Below, one piece after another: positions 317 to 6,535 of a DNA stretch of 64,000 nucleotides (positions are counted from its first letter, which is position 1; each line of letters starts with the position of its first letter). The stretch is taken from positions 1 to 64,000 of the forward strand of contig NZ_FRAS01000007.1 in assembly GCF_900142395.1 (NCBI RefSeq), given 5' to 3'. The stretch comes from Hymenobacter psychrotolerans DSM 18569. Its GTDB lineage: Bacteria; Bacteroidota; Bacteroidia; Cytophagales; Hymenobacteraceae. A model generated the notes under the pieces. That model did no database searches. It was not told where the DNA came from and was given only the letters and a program-made list of their open reading frames with translations. The position numbers and the translations under genes were made by a program.

Positions 317-341
317 TGGTAGAAAATGGTAAATAGTGGTT
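317..341 (+). promoter_or_regulatory. MraZ-box-like triple direct repeat upstream of mraZ
   Basis: Three TGGTW units (TGGTA, TGGTA, TGGTT) begin at 317, 327 and 337, so 5-bp repeats are separated by exactly 5 bp. The known MraZ operator in other bacteria is three or four TGGGN repeats with the same 10-bp period just upstream of mraZ. The third unit overlaps the -33 TTG of the predicted mraZ promoter, as expected for autorepression. Confidence 0.65.
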
Positions 342-369
342 GCCTTTTCTAAGGCATTGTGTACTTTTG
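340..369 (+). promoter_or_regulatory. dcw cluster promoter (PmraZ)
   Basis: TTG at 340-342, a 19-bp spacer and TACTTTTG at 362-369 match the Bacteroidota consensus TTG-N19-TAnnTTTG. The start of mraZ lies 33 bp downstream of the -7 element. This is probably the main promoter of the cluster. Confidence 0.75.
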
Positions 370-402: not shown

Positions 403-876
403 ATGAACCTGCTCTCCGGCGAATACGAATGCAAGCTGGACCCGAAAGGGCGGCTGGTGCTGCCGGCCAAGGTGAAGGGCAGTCTGCCCCAGGCCTCGGC
501 CGGGCAGCTCGTGCTGGTGCGTGGGTTTGAGCCCTGCCTCGTACTCTACCCGCTGGAGGCGTGGCGCGTGATTCATGACAAGGTGATGGCGCTGGATGAG
601 TTCAATGAGGAATACCGGCAGTTTCAGCGCAACTTTTTCCGGGGTATGACGGAGGTAGAGCTCGACAGTATCGGGCGGTTTATGCTGCCCGGTTCCATGC
701 GCCGCTATGCCGGCCTGGAGAAGGAGGCCATCATTGTAGGACTCGGCAACCGCTGCGAAATCTGGGACACGGCCCGCTACGACGAATACCTTATCAAGGA
801 CCAGCAGAGCTTCTCGAAGCTGGCCCAGAAATTCCTGACCAACGAAACCGGGCCTGGCGGCTCCCTTGCCGCATGA
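403..876 (+). CDS. mraZ: transcriptional regulator MraZ
   Basis: DNA-binding regulator that in other bacteria forms a ring-shaped oligomer and represses its own dcw operon. The 157-residue protein has two SpoVT/AbrB-like halves, each with the typical D-x-x-G-R-x-x-L/M-P signature (D13-P21 and D88-P96). I chose the ATG at 403, not an in-frame upstream ATG at 340, because 340 lies inside the promoter and the family starts with M-x-x-L-S/T-G-E-Y. Its stop overlaps the rsmH start as ATGA. The repeats at 317-341 are its probable operator. Confidence 0.95.
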   Translation: MNLLSGEYECKLDPKGRLVLPAKVKGSLPQASAGQLVLVRGFEPCLVLYPLEAWRVIHDKVMALDEFNEEYRQFQRNFFRGMTEVELDSIGRFMLPGSMRRYAGLEKEAIIVGLGNRCEIWDTARYDEYLIKDQQSFSKLAQKFLTNETGPGGSLAA

Positions 877-1820
877 GCACGACCCCAAGCAACGACTACC
901 AGAACGATACTGCCTACCACCGCCCCGTGATGCTACGCGAGTGCCTGGAGGCGCTGGACCTGCAGCCCGGCGGCCGCTACGTTGACGTGACCTTTGGTGG
1001 CGGCGGCCACTCGGCCCGGATTCTGGAGCACCTACGCGGCGAAGGCCACCTCTACAGCTTCGACCAGGACGCCGATGCCGAACAGGAGGCCGCCAAACTG
1101 GCCCGGCCGCAGTTCACGTTCATCCGGGCCAACTTCCGCGACCTGCACGCCGAGCTGCAGCACCACGGGGCCCTGCCCGTAGATGGCCTGCTGGCTGATC
1201 TGGGCGTGTCGTCGCACCAGTTTGATACGCCGGAGCGGGGCTTCAGCACCCGGTTTGATGGGCCGCTGGACATGCGCATGAACGCCGAAGACGGCCCCAC
1301 GGCCGCCGACATCATCAATGAGTATCCGGAAGCCGACCTGCACCGCATCTTTGGCATGTACGGGGAAGTAACCAACGCCCGCACGCTGGCCCAGACCGTG
1401 GCCGCCGCGCGGCGCGGGCAAACCATCCATACCATTGCCGGCCTGAAAAAGGCCATTGCCGGCTGCACGCCGCGCGGCAAGGAAAACAAATACCTGGCCC
1501 AGGTATTTCAGGCCCTGCGCATCGAGGCCAACGACGAGATGAAGGCGTTGCAGGAAATGCTGGAGCAAACGGCGCAGGTGCTGCGTCCCGGCGGGCGGCT
1601 GGTGGTCATGAGCTACCATTCGCTGGAAGACCGGCTGGTGAAGAACTTCATGGCCAAAGGCAAATTCTACGGCGAAGCCGAGAAGGACCTGTTCGGCCGC
1701 ACCAACACCCCTTTCGAGGTGCTGACCCGCAAGCCGGTGGAAGCTTCCGCCGACGAAGTAGCCCTGAACAGCCGCGCCCGCTCGGCCAAGCTGCGCGTGG
1801 CGATAAGACGACCGGAATAA
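873..1820 (+). CDS. rsmH: 16S rRNA (cytosine(1402)-N(4))-methyltransferase RsmH
   Basis: Cytoplasmic SAM-dependent enzyme (formerly MraW) that N4-methylates C1402 of 16S rRNA. The 315-residue protein has the family-typical length. The SAM-binding glycine loop VDVTFGGGGHS lies at residues 37-47, and the conserved SYHSLEDR is near residue 247. The start overlaps the mraZ stop by 4 bp, indicating translational coupling. Second gene of the dcw cluster, its usual place. Confidence 0.96.
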   Translation: MSTTPSNDYQNDTAYHRPVMLRECLEALDLQPGGRYVDVTFGGGGHSARILEHLRGEGHLYSFDQDADAEQEAAKLARPQFTFIRANFRDLHAELQHHGALPVDGLLADLGVSSHQFDTPERGFSTRFDGPLDMRMNAEDGPTAADIINEYPEADLHRIFGMYGEVTNARTLAQTVAAARRGQTIHTIAGLKKAIAGCTPRGKENKYLAQVFQALRIEANDEMKALQEMLEQTAQVLRPGGRLVVMSYHSLEDRLVKNFMAKGKFYGEAEKDLFGRTNTPFEVLTRKPVEASADEVALNSRARSAKLRVAIRRPE

Positions 1821-2578: not shown

Positions 2579-2587
2579 TCAGTGAAG

Positions 2588-4984
2588 ATGAAAGGAAGCG
2601 TTAAAAAATCCATCGTTACCCGCGTACGGCTGGCGTTTTTGGGCGTCTGCCTGTTTTCGTGCGCAGTAGTCTGGAAGATTTCCAACATCCAGTTCAAGGA
2701 AGGGGAGCGGTGGCGCGCCCTGGAGCAGGAGCGCCGCGTGGTATACCAGCCGGTATTTGCCACGCGCGGCACCATTCTCGCCGACGACGGCCGCAGCATC
2801 ATGGCCACTTCGCTGCCCTTTTTCCGGGTGGCCTGGGACCCGAGCGTAGTCGATTCGGAAACGTTTAACAAAGGCGTTGACTCTCTGGCCATTCAACTGG
2901 CGCATTTCTTCGGTGACCGGAGCATATCGGAGTACAAGCGCAAGCTCAAGAACGCCAAGCTGGCCAAACCCTCGGTGCGCTACATTCGTCTGAATTCCCG
3001 GCAGATCAACTACCAGGAGAAGAAGGAGCTGGCGCAGTGGCCCATTTTCCGGGAAGGCAAAAACAAGGGCGGCGTCATTTTCGAGAAAGTCGATAAGCGG
3101 TTCCGGCCGTTTGGCGGGCTGGCCCAGCGCACCATCGGCTTCGTGAACGAGGATAAGAACGGCGCGGGTCTGGAGTTTACCTTCAACCGACACCTGGCCG
3201 GCAAAGACGGCGAGGCGCTGTTTGAGCGGCTGCCCGGCGGCAACAAGCCCATCTACGACGGCACCGAGGTCAAGCCGATTCCGGGCTACGACGTGCAAAC
3301 CACGCTCGATATCAACCTGCAGGACGTGGCCGAAAATGCGCTGTACAAGTCGCTGGTCGACAACAATGCCCAGTACGGCTGCGTGATTCTGATGGAAGTG
3401 CAGACCGGCGAAATCAAGGCCGTGGCCAACCTGGGCAAGGTAGCCGACGGCGTGTACCGCGAAGACTACAACTACGCCATTGCCGACCAGGGCCGGACCG
3501 AGCCGGGCTCCACGTTCAAGCTGGCCTCCATGATGGCGCTGTTCGAGGAAAATCCGAACGTCACGCTCGACGACATCGTGGACACCGGCAACGGCCGCAT
3601 GTACATCGGCGGAGCCGTGAAAACCGACTCGCACGGTTACGGCAAAATCACGGTGAAGCAGGTGTTCGAGAAGTCGTCGAACATTGGTATTGCCGTGCTG
3701 GTCGATAAGCAGTTTGGCAAGAACCCCAGCCGCTACACCGACCATCTGAAAAAGTTCGGGCTGCACAAGCCGCTGGGCTTCCAGATGGCCGGCGAAGCCC
3801 GCCCGTACGTGAAAGACCCGCAGGACCGGTCCTGGAGCCGCACCTCCCTGACCACCATGAGCATCGGCTACGAGCTGAAGCTGGCTCCTTTGCAGACGCT
3901 GGCCTTCTACAATGCCATAGCGAATGGCGGCGTGAAAGTGCAGCCCATGATTGTGCGCGAAATCAAGCAGGCCGACAAAGTGCTGGAGCGGTTTGAGCCG
4001 GTTATTCTCAATCCCAAAATCTGCTCCGATGAGACGCTGGAAAAGGTGAAAGCCATGATGGAAGGCGTCGTGAGCCAGGGCACGGCCCGTAGTATCCGGT
4101 CCGAGGACTTCACGATGGCCGGCAAAACCGGTACCGCCTGGAAATTCAAGAACGGCGCCTACACGAAGGTGTATTCCACCAGCTTCTGCGGCTATTTCCC
4201 CGCCGACAAGCCCAAGTACAGCTGCATCGTGGTGGTCGATTCGCCGAAGAAAGGCCGCATTTACGGCGCCGACGTGGCCGCGCCGGTTTTCCGCGAAGTG
4301 GCCGACAAAGCCATGGCCCGCGACGCCGCGAGCCAGCGGCCGCTGCTGGCCCGCGCCTCGCTCAACAAGGCCAAAGTGCCCTTCGTGCAGGCCGGTATGC
4401 AGGACGAGCTGCGGCTGGTGTGCGAGCAGATTGGCGTGAAAAACGAAGCCCCTTCCCCCGACGAGGATTGGGTGCGGATAGATGCCAAAAAAGACAGCGG
4501 GGCCGAAGCACTGGCGCTGCAGCCGTTGCCGGTTCGGCCCGGCCGCGTGCCCAACGTCACGGGCCTCACCCTCCGCGACGCCCTGTTCCTGCTCGAAAAC
4601 CGCGGCCTGCGCGTGCGCACTCAGGGCACGGGCCGCGTAAAGGCGCAGTCGGTGGCGGCGGGCACGGCCGTGCGGCGTGGCACGATGGTCACGTTGGCGC
4701 TGGCGCCCATCGGGCAGCGGCCCGGCGGCCCGGCGGCGCCGGTAGTGGCGCCGGCATCCAGCCAGCTGGAAGAAAACAAGCTGCTGACGCCCGTGGATAC
4801 CGACCTCGACGCCAAAGCCCGGGCGCTGGCGGCCAAAGCCAAAGCCCGGCTGGCAGCTACCAGTCCGGCGCCCGCCGCACCTCAGCCGAAGAAAAAGCCT
4901 GAGCCCAAACCCAGCGCCAAGCCGGCCAAACCTGCCAAGCAGCTAAGCCAGCAGGCCACTGGCGCCAAGCCTAAAAAGGCCTAG
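2588..4984 (+). CDS. ftsI: septal peptidoglycan transpeptidase FtsI/PBP3 with PASTA domain
   Basis: Class B penicillin-binding protein that crosslinks septal peptidoglycan in complex with FtsW. It has an N-terminal membrane anchor (about residues 8-30), then a dimerisation domain and a transpeptidase domain with all three active-site motifs: S-T-F-K (S308), S-S-N (about 363) and K-T-G-T (K513). A single C-terminal PASTA domain (about 652-707) is followed by a Lys/Pro/Ala-rich tail. I chose the ATG at 2588; an in-frame GTG two codons upstream is possible. It follows ftsL by 9 bp. Confidence 0.95.
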   Translation: MKGSVKKSIVTRVRLAFLGVCLFSCAVVWKISNIQFKEGERWRALEQERRVVYQPVFATRGTILADDGRSIMATSLPFFRVAWDPSVVDSETFNKGVDSLAIQLAHFFGDRSISEYKRKLKNAKLAKPSVRYIRLNSRQINYQEKKELAQWPIFREGKNKGGVIFEKVDKRFRPFGGLAQRTIGFVNEDKNGAGLEFTFNRHLAGKDGEALFERLPGGNKPIYDGTEVKPIPGYDVQTTLDINLQDVAENALYKSLVDNNAQYGCVILMEVQTGEIKAVANLGKVADGVYREDYNYAIADQGRTEPGSTFKLASMMALFEENPNVTLDDIVDTGNGRMYIGGAVKTDSHGYGKITVKQVFEKSSNIGIAVLVDKQFGKNPSRYTDHLKKFGLHKPLGFQMAGEARPYVKDPQDRSWSRTSLTTMSIGYELKLAPLQTLAFYNAIANGGVKVQPMIVREIKQADKVLERFEPVILNPKICSDETLEKVKAMMEGVVSQGTARSIRSEDFTMAGKTGTAWKFKNGAYTKVYSTSFCGYFPADKPKYSCIVVVDSPKKGRIYGADVAAPVFREVADKAMARDAASQRPLLARASLNKAKVPFVQAGMQDELRLVCEQIGVKNEAPSPDEDWVRIDAKKDSGAEALALQPLPVRPGRVPNVTGLTLRDALFLLENRGLRVRTQGTGRVKAQSVAAGTAVRRGTMVTLALAPIGQRPGGPAAPVVAPASSQLEENKLLTPVDTDLDAKARALAAKAKARLAATSPAPAAPQPKKKPEPKPSAKPAKPAKQLSQQATGAKPKKA

Positions 4985-5047: not shown

Positions 5048-6535
5048 TTGTCTGAATCCAACGAAATAACGCTTCCGCTTTTTTCCCTGCTCGCCGATGT
5101 GCGCATAACGGCGCAGCATGGCCCCGCCGATGTGTCCGTGCGGGCGCTTACGCTCAACTCGCGGCAGGCCGCGCCCGGCTTTGTGTTTTTCGCATTGCGC
5201 GGTGCCGCCACCGACGGGCACCAGTTCATTGCGAAAGCCGTGGAACAGGGCGCATCTGTGGTGGTGTGTGAAGACCTGCCGGCCACGCTCAGCCCGGGCA
5301 CGGCCTATGTGCAGGTGCCCGATTCGGCGGAGGCTATGGCGCATATGGCAGCGGCTTTCTACGGGCATCCGTCGCGGAGCCTGCAGTTGATTGGCGTGAC
5401 GGGCACCAACGGCAAAACCACCTGCGCCACGCTGCTGCACAAGCTGCTGCGCGAGCTGGGCTACCATACCGGCCTGCTCAGCACGGTGCAGAACCAGATT
5501 GACGAGCTGGTGATTCCGGCCACGCATACCACGCCCGACGCCATCCGGCTGAATGAGCTGCTGGCCCGCATGGTGGAAGCCGGCTGCACGCACGCCTGCA
5601 TGGAAGTGAGCAGCCACGCCGTCGTGCAGCACCGCACCACGGCGCTGCGCTTCGCGGGCGGCATCTTCACCAACCTCACCCACGACCACCTCGACTACCA
5701 CGGCACGTTCGACAACTACCTGAAGGCCAAGAAAGGCTTCTTCGACCAGCTGCCCAAAACGGCCTTCGCCCTCTCCAACGCCGACGACAAGCGCGGCATG
5801 GTGATGCTGCAGAACACGCCCGCCCGCCGCGAAACCTACTCGCTGCGCAGTGCCGCCACGTTCCGGGCCAAGCTGATTGAAAATGCCGTGCATGGCCTGC
5901 ACCTCGAAGTAGACGGCCACGACACGCAGTTCCGCCTGATTGGCGTCTTCAATGCCTACAACTTGCTGGCCGTGTATGGCGCGGCCGTGCTGCTGGGCGA
6001 GGAGCCGCTGGAAGTGCTGACCGTGCTGTCGGGGCTGCTGTCGGCGCCGGGGCGGTTTGAGCCGGTGGTGTCGGAGAAAAGCCGCGTGACGGGCATTGTG
6101 GACTACGCGCACACGCCCGACGCGCTGGAAAACGTGCTGCAAACTATTGCCGACATCCGCCAGCCCAGCCAGCAGGTTATTACGGTGGTGGGCTGCGGCG
6201 GCAACCGCGACGGGGCTAAACGCCCCATTATGGCCGGTCTCGCCTGCCAGGGCTCCGACCGGGTCGTGCTGACGTCCGACAACCCGCGTTTTGAAGACCC
6301 CAACGATATTCTGCAGCAGATGCAGGCCGGCGTGAAGGTGCAGGACCTGGCCAAAGTCCTGACCATTCCGGACCGGCGCGAAGCCATCAAAACCGCCGTG
6401 GCGCTGGCTGGCCCCGGCGACATTGTGCTGGTAGCCGGCAAAGGCCACGAAACCTACCAGGAAATCAAAGGCGTGAAAACTGACTTCGACGATAAAAAAG
6501 TACTGACCGACATGTTTGACCTGCTGGGTAAGTAA
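5048..6535 (+). CDS. murE: UDP-N-acetylmuramoyl-L-alanyl-D-glutamate--2,6-diaminopimelate ligase MurE
   Basis: Cytoplasmic Mur ligase adding the third residue of the peptidoglycan stem peptide. The 495-residue protein shows the ATP-binding GVTGTNGKTT motif near residue 117, the conserved NLTHDHLDYHG, and a DNPR motif in the C-terminal domain. DNPR is the known marker for meso-diaminopimelate rather than lysine as substrate. The start is a TTG at 5048. No murF or ddl follows, so the ligase adding D-Ala-D-Ala must be encoded elsewhere. Confidence 0.95.
   Translation: MSESNEITLPLFSLLADVRITAQHGPADVSVRALTLNSRQAAPGFVFFALRGAATDGHQFIAKAVEQGASVVVCEDLPATLSPGTAYVQVPDSAEAMAHMAAAFYGHPSRSLQLIGVTGTNGKTTCATLLHKLLRELGYHTGLLSTVQNQIDELVIPATHTTPDAIRLNELLARMVEAGCTHACMEVSSHAVVQHRTTALRFAGGIFTNLTHDHLDYHGTFDNYLKAKKGFFDQLPKTAFALSNADDKRGMVMLQNTPARRETYSLRSAATFRAKLIENAVHGLHLEVDGHDTQFRLIGVFNAYNLLAVYGAAVLLGEEPLEVLTVLSGLLSAPGRFEPVVSEKSRVTGIVDYAHTPDALENVLQTIADIRQPSQQVITVVGCGGNRDGAKRPIMAGLACQGSDRVVLTSDNPRFEDPNDILQQMQAGVKVQDLAKVLTIPDRREAIKTAVALAGPGDIVLVAGKGHETYQEIKGVKTDFDDKKVLTDMFDLLGK

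Follow-up and report, generated by a model that had tools for sequence, protein, structure and literature searches.

We predict that the block at positions 316 to 340 of the window (the whole 64,000-nucleotide stretch of Hymenobacter psychrotolerans DNA analyzed here) is an operator of the regulator MraZ, and that MraZ bound there represses its own operon by covering the -33 element of the promoter, a combined reading to which we assign a probability of roughly 0.68. Judging from sequence, conservation and co-occurrence, it is very likely that the block is a MraZ operator; given this identity, the overlap with the -33 and analogy with other species suggest that MraZ probably represses the promoter. 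Specifically, we infer that MraZ binds 316-340 as a ring, with repression as the sign of control.

The predicted operator lies on the forward strand and reads GTGGTAGAAAATGGTAAATAGTGGT (316-340); from 316 onward the window reads GTGGTAGAAAATGGTAAATAGTGGTTGCC. It consists of three GTGG/TGG words at 10-bp spacing, and its assignment draws on sequence, conservation and co-occurrence with MraZ. Read directly from the window, TGGTA, TGGTA and TGGTT start at 317, 327 and 337 at exact 10-bp intervals, with the TGGT words at 317-320, 327-330 and 337-340 on the forward strand, and the third word (337-341) overlaps the -33 TTG (340-342). The preliminary description was correct on both of these points, and erred in speaking of an altered third base: compared with TGGG, the change is in base four. 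The block thus has the three core words at 10 bp, in the mraZ promoter region, that are expected of a MraZ operator. The E. coli-type MraZ box is defined as TGGGN, and TGGG is absent here, all three window words being TGGT.

An exact search of the window for the three-word pattern gives a single match. When up to two mismatches are allowed there are two window matches, the second of which is again this array, offset by a box; at this tolerance shuffled sequence gave a mean of 0.28 matches, and 3 of 100 shuffles reached two. Across the whole genome the loose pattern TGGTN6TGGTN6TGG has two matches versus one for a reversed-pattern control, and alone it is near chance level. The fuller 24-bp word GTGGTANNAANTGGTANANNGTGG gave one genomic match at two mismatches and none for the control. 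A TTTT run also lies about 8-11 bp before box 1 (in the 306-310 region of the window), one helical turn upstream of that box in Hymenobacter, and each of its four columns is T in 75-90 of 93 Hymenobacter loci.

The Bacteroidota promoter consensus is TTG ... TAnnTTTG. On the forward strand we identified a predicted promoter of this form, TTG-N19-TACTTTTG, ahead of mraZ and rsmH, based on the consensus only: the -33 TTG at 340-342 overlaps box 3, and the -7 element TACTTTTG (362-369) follows 19 bp after the TTG. A sigma-70 scan, of a kind that does not cover Bacteroidota promoters, returned no match at the mraZ promoter. A spacer inverted repeat (TGCC...GGCA, 340-357) was rejected as a feature, as its complementarity exceeded expectation by at most 0.06 per pair over the 75 Hymenobacter loci with spacing 25.

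The operator ends 62 bp before mraZ (403-876, forward strand; PF02381 107.7 bits, cut-off 23; TIGR00242 126.6, cut-off 98.35), the presumed operator binder, whose ATG at 403 was chosen by homology; the mechanically called open reading frame begins at TTG 340. The start of rsmH (mraW; 873-1820, forward strand; PF01795 298.5 bits; TIGR00006 289.1 bits, cut-off 154.3) overlaps the end of mraZ by 4 bp. Downstream on the same strand are an open reading frame at the place of ftsL (1865-2578), which has no family match and is named by place only, a predicted penicillin-binding transpeptidase (FtsI/SpoVD-like; 2582-4984) whose matches to several PBP models all fall short of the curated cut-offs, and murE (5048-6535; NF001126 592.9 bits, cut-off 373). 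The MraZ protein encoded in the window has two PF02381 stretches and, as is typical of the family, two AbrB-like domains with D-x-x-G-R loops. The nearest named relative is H. duratus, whose MraZ is 99% identical. The D-x-K-G-R loop is present in all 14 aligned MraZ proteins, in which D13, K15, G16 and R17 as well as D88 and R92 are invariant. MraZ structures are available in the PDB (1n0e, 9qlg, 9sx6 and 9qlr); our literature search found no paper on the newer of these among the matches listed.

The array is conserved well beyond the window. We read the upstream DNA of 92 of the 94 MraZ-bearing genus genomes (all but G022 and G070), in all of which the word directly precedes mraZ, and added one Hymenobacter from the family search. 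All 93 of these Hymenobacter loci carry TGGT, TGGT and then TGGT (87 loci) or TGGC (6 loci) at 10-bp spacing. The conserved block corresponds to 316-339/340, as boxes 1 and 3 are each preceded by a G that is likewise invariant in 93 of 93 loci. The 24-bp block has 17 invariant columns and a mean information of 1.78 bits, compared with 0.38 in the DNA upstream and 0.74 in the spacer that follows, figures to be read in the light of the lenient TGG pattern used to anchor the loci, which means that up to 9 of the 17 invariant letters aided the search and part of the contrast arises by construction. Invariant letters outside the anchor include the G before boxes 1 and 3 and the TA after boxes 1 and 2. 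In a collection of named genomes, the array was found at all 49 Hymenobacter loci, many of them from the same genomes as the genus set, and at one Solirubrum locus (TGGT in all three boxes in 48, TGGC in box 3 in two).

MraZ is present in 60 of 60 family genomes, and we read every one of the 45 that lie outside the genus. Genus and family together thus provide 138 loci, all with the array, so that the refuting outcome named at the outset, a lack of conservation in relatives, did not occur. TGG is intact in all three words in 132 of the 138; in the remaining six a single TGG letter of box 3 is changed (two loci in g2, one in g3, three in g4). Contig matching indicated that g3 holds Pontibacter, g4 Adhaeribacter, g5 Solirubrum and g6 Rufibacter. 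For the order we used the 27 best-scoring of 47 MraZ-bearing genomes outside the genus: 24 have arrays, with 12 of 12 core letters in 21 and 11 in three, and the exceptions are one locus with two boxes (L293) and two with MraZ but no array (L277, L290). The family and order loci are partly the best-scoring ones, and divergent MraZ are under-sampled. One Hymenobacter genome contains a second operator-like site with one mismatch away from mraZ (G001:C62:28679-28702), possibly a further target or a chance match.

The operator is missing together with MraZ. MraZ is encoded in 94 of 101 genus genomes, and the operator word (up to one mismatch) was found in exactly these 94; the control word matched once in the same scan (in G064). 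The seven MraZ-less genomes are 99-100% complete, all have rsmH, and all keep TACTTTTG before it, and none of the seven has an array before rsmH exceeding shuffled sequence. With up to two mismatches allowed anywhere in the genome, these seven have zero copies of the operator word and four of four MraZ-bearing genomes have one copy each, G092 also giving two control matches. In a tree of RsmH (65 rows) the seven form one clade (97/64), beside a relative with both mraZ and operator (L021), suggesting one loss event and not seven. At spacer 19 the clade has TTG in five of seven genomes, and L021, its nearest MraZ-bearing relative, has TGG there. A search of 118 genomes of the order found no MraZ in 62. 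RsmH was found in all 20 of these 62 that were searched (12 families), and none of the 20 loci has an array before rsmH exceeding its own shuffles, a weaker control given that one locus has only 45 bp upstream and that rsmH may follow unrelated promoters. Overall, mraZ seems to have been lost often in the order, including in one Hymenobacter clade.

The position of the array relative to the promoter is nearly fixed. Box 3 precedes TAnnTTTG by 24-25 bp in all 138 family loci, a spacing that was part of the search rule in that 20-30 bp were allowed; among the 93 Hymenobacter loci the distance is 25 bp in 75 and 24 bp in 18. Within the order sample (best 27 of 47) it is 25 bp in 21 of 27 loci and 26 bp in one (L300), and three more (L291, L299, L302) have arrays in another register with a box still at 24-25, so that a box at 24-26 bp occurs in 25 of 27. 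Box 3 usually runs into the TTG as GTGGTTG. A TTG with a spacer of 17-23 bp is present in 60 of 93 Hymenobacter loci and absent in 33, and of the 21 order loci spaced at 25 bp, six lack it. The 24-bp spacing occurs in 17 of the 33 TTG-less Hymenobacter loci versus 1 of the 60 with TTG: without TTG, the spacing between box and promoter mostly holds but loosens. It is this position over and upstream of the -33 that is the distinctive feature, not the TGGT spelling. The initial suggestion that a MraZ-type operator overlaps the -33 of the mraZ/dcw promoter is therefore supported by the presence of the array in 138 of 138 loci and its absence from the seven MraZ-less genomes, but the accompanying suggestion that TGGT is specific to the lineage is not supported.

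Several distant members of the phylum have the words behind or across the -10/-7. In another family of the same class (f5), MraZ-type words run through a sequence, GTGTTATTTTGT, that is shared by all six loci examined; it looks like a -7 element between boxes, which would be a third operator position in the phylum.

We also identified a DnaA-box-like element, TTATCCACA, recognizable from the DnaA box consensus, that abuts MraZ box 1 in 37 of 37 loci of g2, g3, g4 and g6 and in 0 of 101 loci of Hymenobacter and g5. Further TGTGGATAA copies lie upstream of it in most of the g2, g3, g4 and g6 loci, and TTATCCACA is present in 29 of 30 named non-Hymenobacter loci. These boxes may represent DnaA control of the division cluster that was lost in Hymenobacter and g5. 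We rejected their interpretation as a mark of the replication origin, as mraZ of G118 (at 1.28 Mb) lies within negative GC skew and not at the switch, by a coarse and noisy test of 20 sampled stretches in this one single-contig genome. A literature search with incomplete coverage of subscription journals found no paper combining 'DnaA box', 'mraZ' and 'dcw'.

For the mode of action, we propose that a MraZ ring would put neighboring subunits on the three GTGG-type words, one helical turn apart; words spaced by one turn would lie on one face of the DNA. We infer the ring shape because an octamer is mentioned for M. gallisepticum MraZ (PMC5282649). Because the third word overlaps the -33 TTG, bound MraZ would cover the sigma-factor contact at this element and most likely repress. 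This promoter would serve mraZ, rsmH and the wall and division genes behind them, and its repression would create a negative feedback loop. MraZ is reported to repress its own cluster in M. genitalium (PMC8475190) and to act as a repressor in E. coli (PMC7761207). In N. elongata dcw expression falls when mraZ is deleted (PMC9395523), and in M. gallisepticum MraZ overexpression was reportedly accompanied by more FtsZ (PMC8475190). Both of these results count against repression as a rule.

Alternatively, MraZ may bind the same operator with the opposite sign, contacting RNA polymerase from a fixed distance and activating transcription, either in support of a weak -33 contact or in its place. An activator, too, would need a nearly constant distance to the core promoter, and activation is thus a live, if rather unlikely, rival. 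The distance is largely kept in genus, family and order, also at genus and order loci where TTG is missing; however, it is looser at the TTG-less Hymenobacter loci, and shared descent alone could keep it. The TTG in five of the seven MraZ-less genomes, where L021 has TGG, speaks for activation, but most loci have a good TTG and -7 and would need no activator. Likewise, the finding that MraZ raises dcw expression in N. elongata is opposed by the repression reported for E. coli and M. genitalium. A more elaborate version, which we regard as speculative and doubtful, would see in the order a composite element, GTGGTTG-N19-TAnnTTTG, at which MraZ, as an activator, would assume the role of the -33 contact; with the shift of the operator from behind the -10 to the -33, the direction of dcw control would have been reversed compared with E. 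coli, and the mraZ-less clade would have rebuilt a plain promoter (TTG in five of seven). We favor repression through coverage of the -33.

The spelling of the words requires no new MraZ specificity. In boxes 1 and 2, TGG is always followed by T in Hymenobacter (93 loci) and g5 (8 loci), by G in 25 of 26 g6 boxes, and by mixed letters in g3, g4 and g2. TGGT in all three boxes, proposed at the outset as a lineage-specific variant, recurs in sister genera, in other families of the order and in another family of the class: it was found in 8 of 8 g5 loci, in 8 of 30 named non-Hymenobacter loci, in 6 of 27 order loci (best 27 of 47) and in L132. According to PMC5282649, the Mollicutes site (AAAGTGKN3)3 leaves the corresponding base free. 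Given this freedom and the recurrence of TGGT elsewhere, the spelling appears to be the outcome of drift at a permissive base and to have become fixed in this lineage. It is very improbable that TGGT marks a changed DNA specificity of the lineage's MraZ, matched by changed residues. The T fixed in Hymenobacter and g5 against the G of g6 might suggest such a change, but in the sister genera g3, g4 and g6 one and the same operator can contain both TGGG and TGGT. A comparison of MraZ proteins between the T and G groups flagged 19 differing positions, including position 90 inside the second D-x-x-G-R loop; however, these positions all track the phylogenetic split and so prove nothing, and none of them falls in the N-terminal loop (13-17). 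We therefore rejected a specificity switch tied to the exchange of T for G, based on the mixed operators, the recurrence in other families and the free Mollicutes base.

It is most improbable that the block has another nature than that of a MraZ site, whether as an A/T-rich element upstream of the promoter, as curved DNA or as the target of a different protein. In favor of such a reading, the A runs that separate the boxes show good conservation and helical phasing. Against it, most of the invariant letters belong to the GTGG/TGGTA words, the genus genomes that lack mraZ are exactly those that lack the array although they retain the promoter, and E. coli mraZ is preceded by an array of this kind.

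Regulation of cell division by MraZ is widespread, and the few species tested differ in its sign. Eraso and colleagues are said to have described MraZ boxes at the E. coli mraZ promoter in 2014. In E. coli K-12 MG1655 DNA we find three GTGGG words behind a -10-like TAAACT. The features shared with the window are a set of three GTGG words spaced by 10 bp immediately upstream of mraZ, a MraZ of the AbrB type, and the place of the operator as the first of the dcw cluster.

The Mollicutes MraZ site, (AAAGTGKN3)3 (Fisunov et al. 2016, as quoted in PMC5282649 and PMC8475190), resembles the window in its 10-bp unit, its three units and its GTG core. The 10-bp units of the window match it with one mismatch each, and several Hymenobacter match the unit exactly, with AAAGTGGTAG in units 2 and 3, although the Mollicutes belong to another phylum and have another promoter type. 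In N. elongata, as here, MraZ controls the dcw cluster and related lineages have also lost mraZ, but the lowered dcw expression upon deletion differs from the repression proposed here, and the accessible part of that report (PMC9395523) describes no operator. Among the titles and abstract openings listed, our literature search, with incomplete coverage of subscription literature, found none on a MraZ operator in Bacteroidota.

The near-fixed place of the operator in most order loci, together with natural lineages that have neither MraZ nor operator, makes the idea that position sets sign testable. The MraZ switch itself is very probably of a known kind; what sets the present system apart is its placement on the front half of the promoter, with GTGGT words over and upstream of the -33, in contrast to the GTGGG words behind the -10 in E. 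coli.
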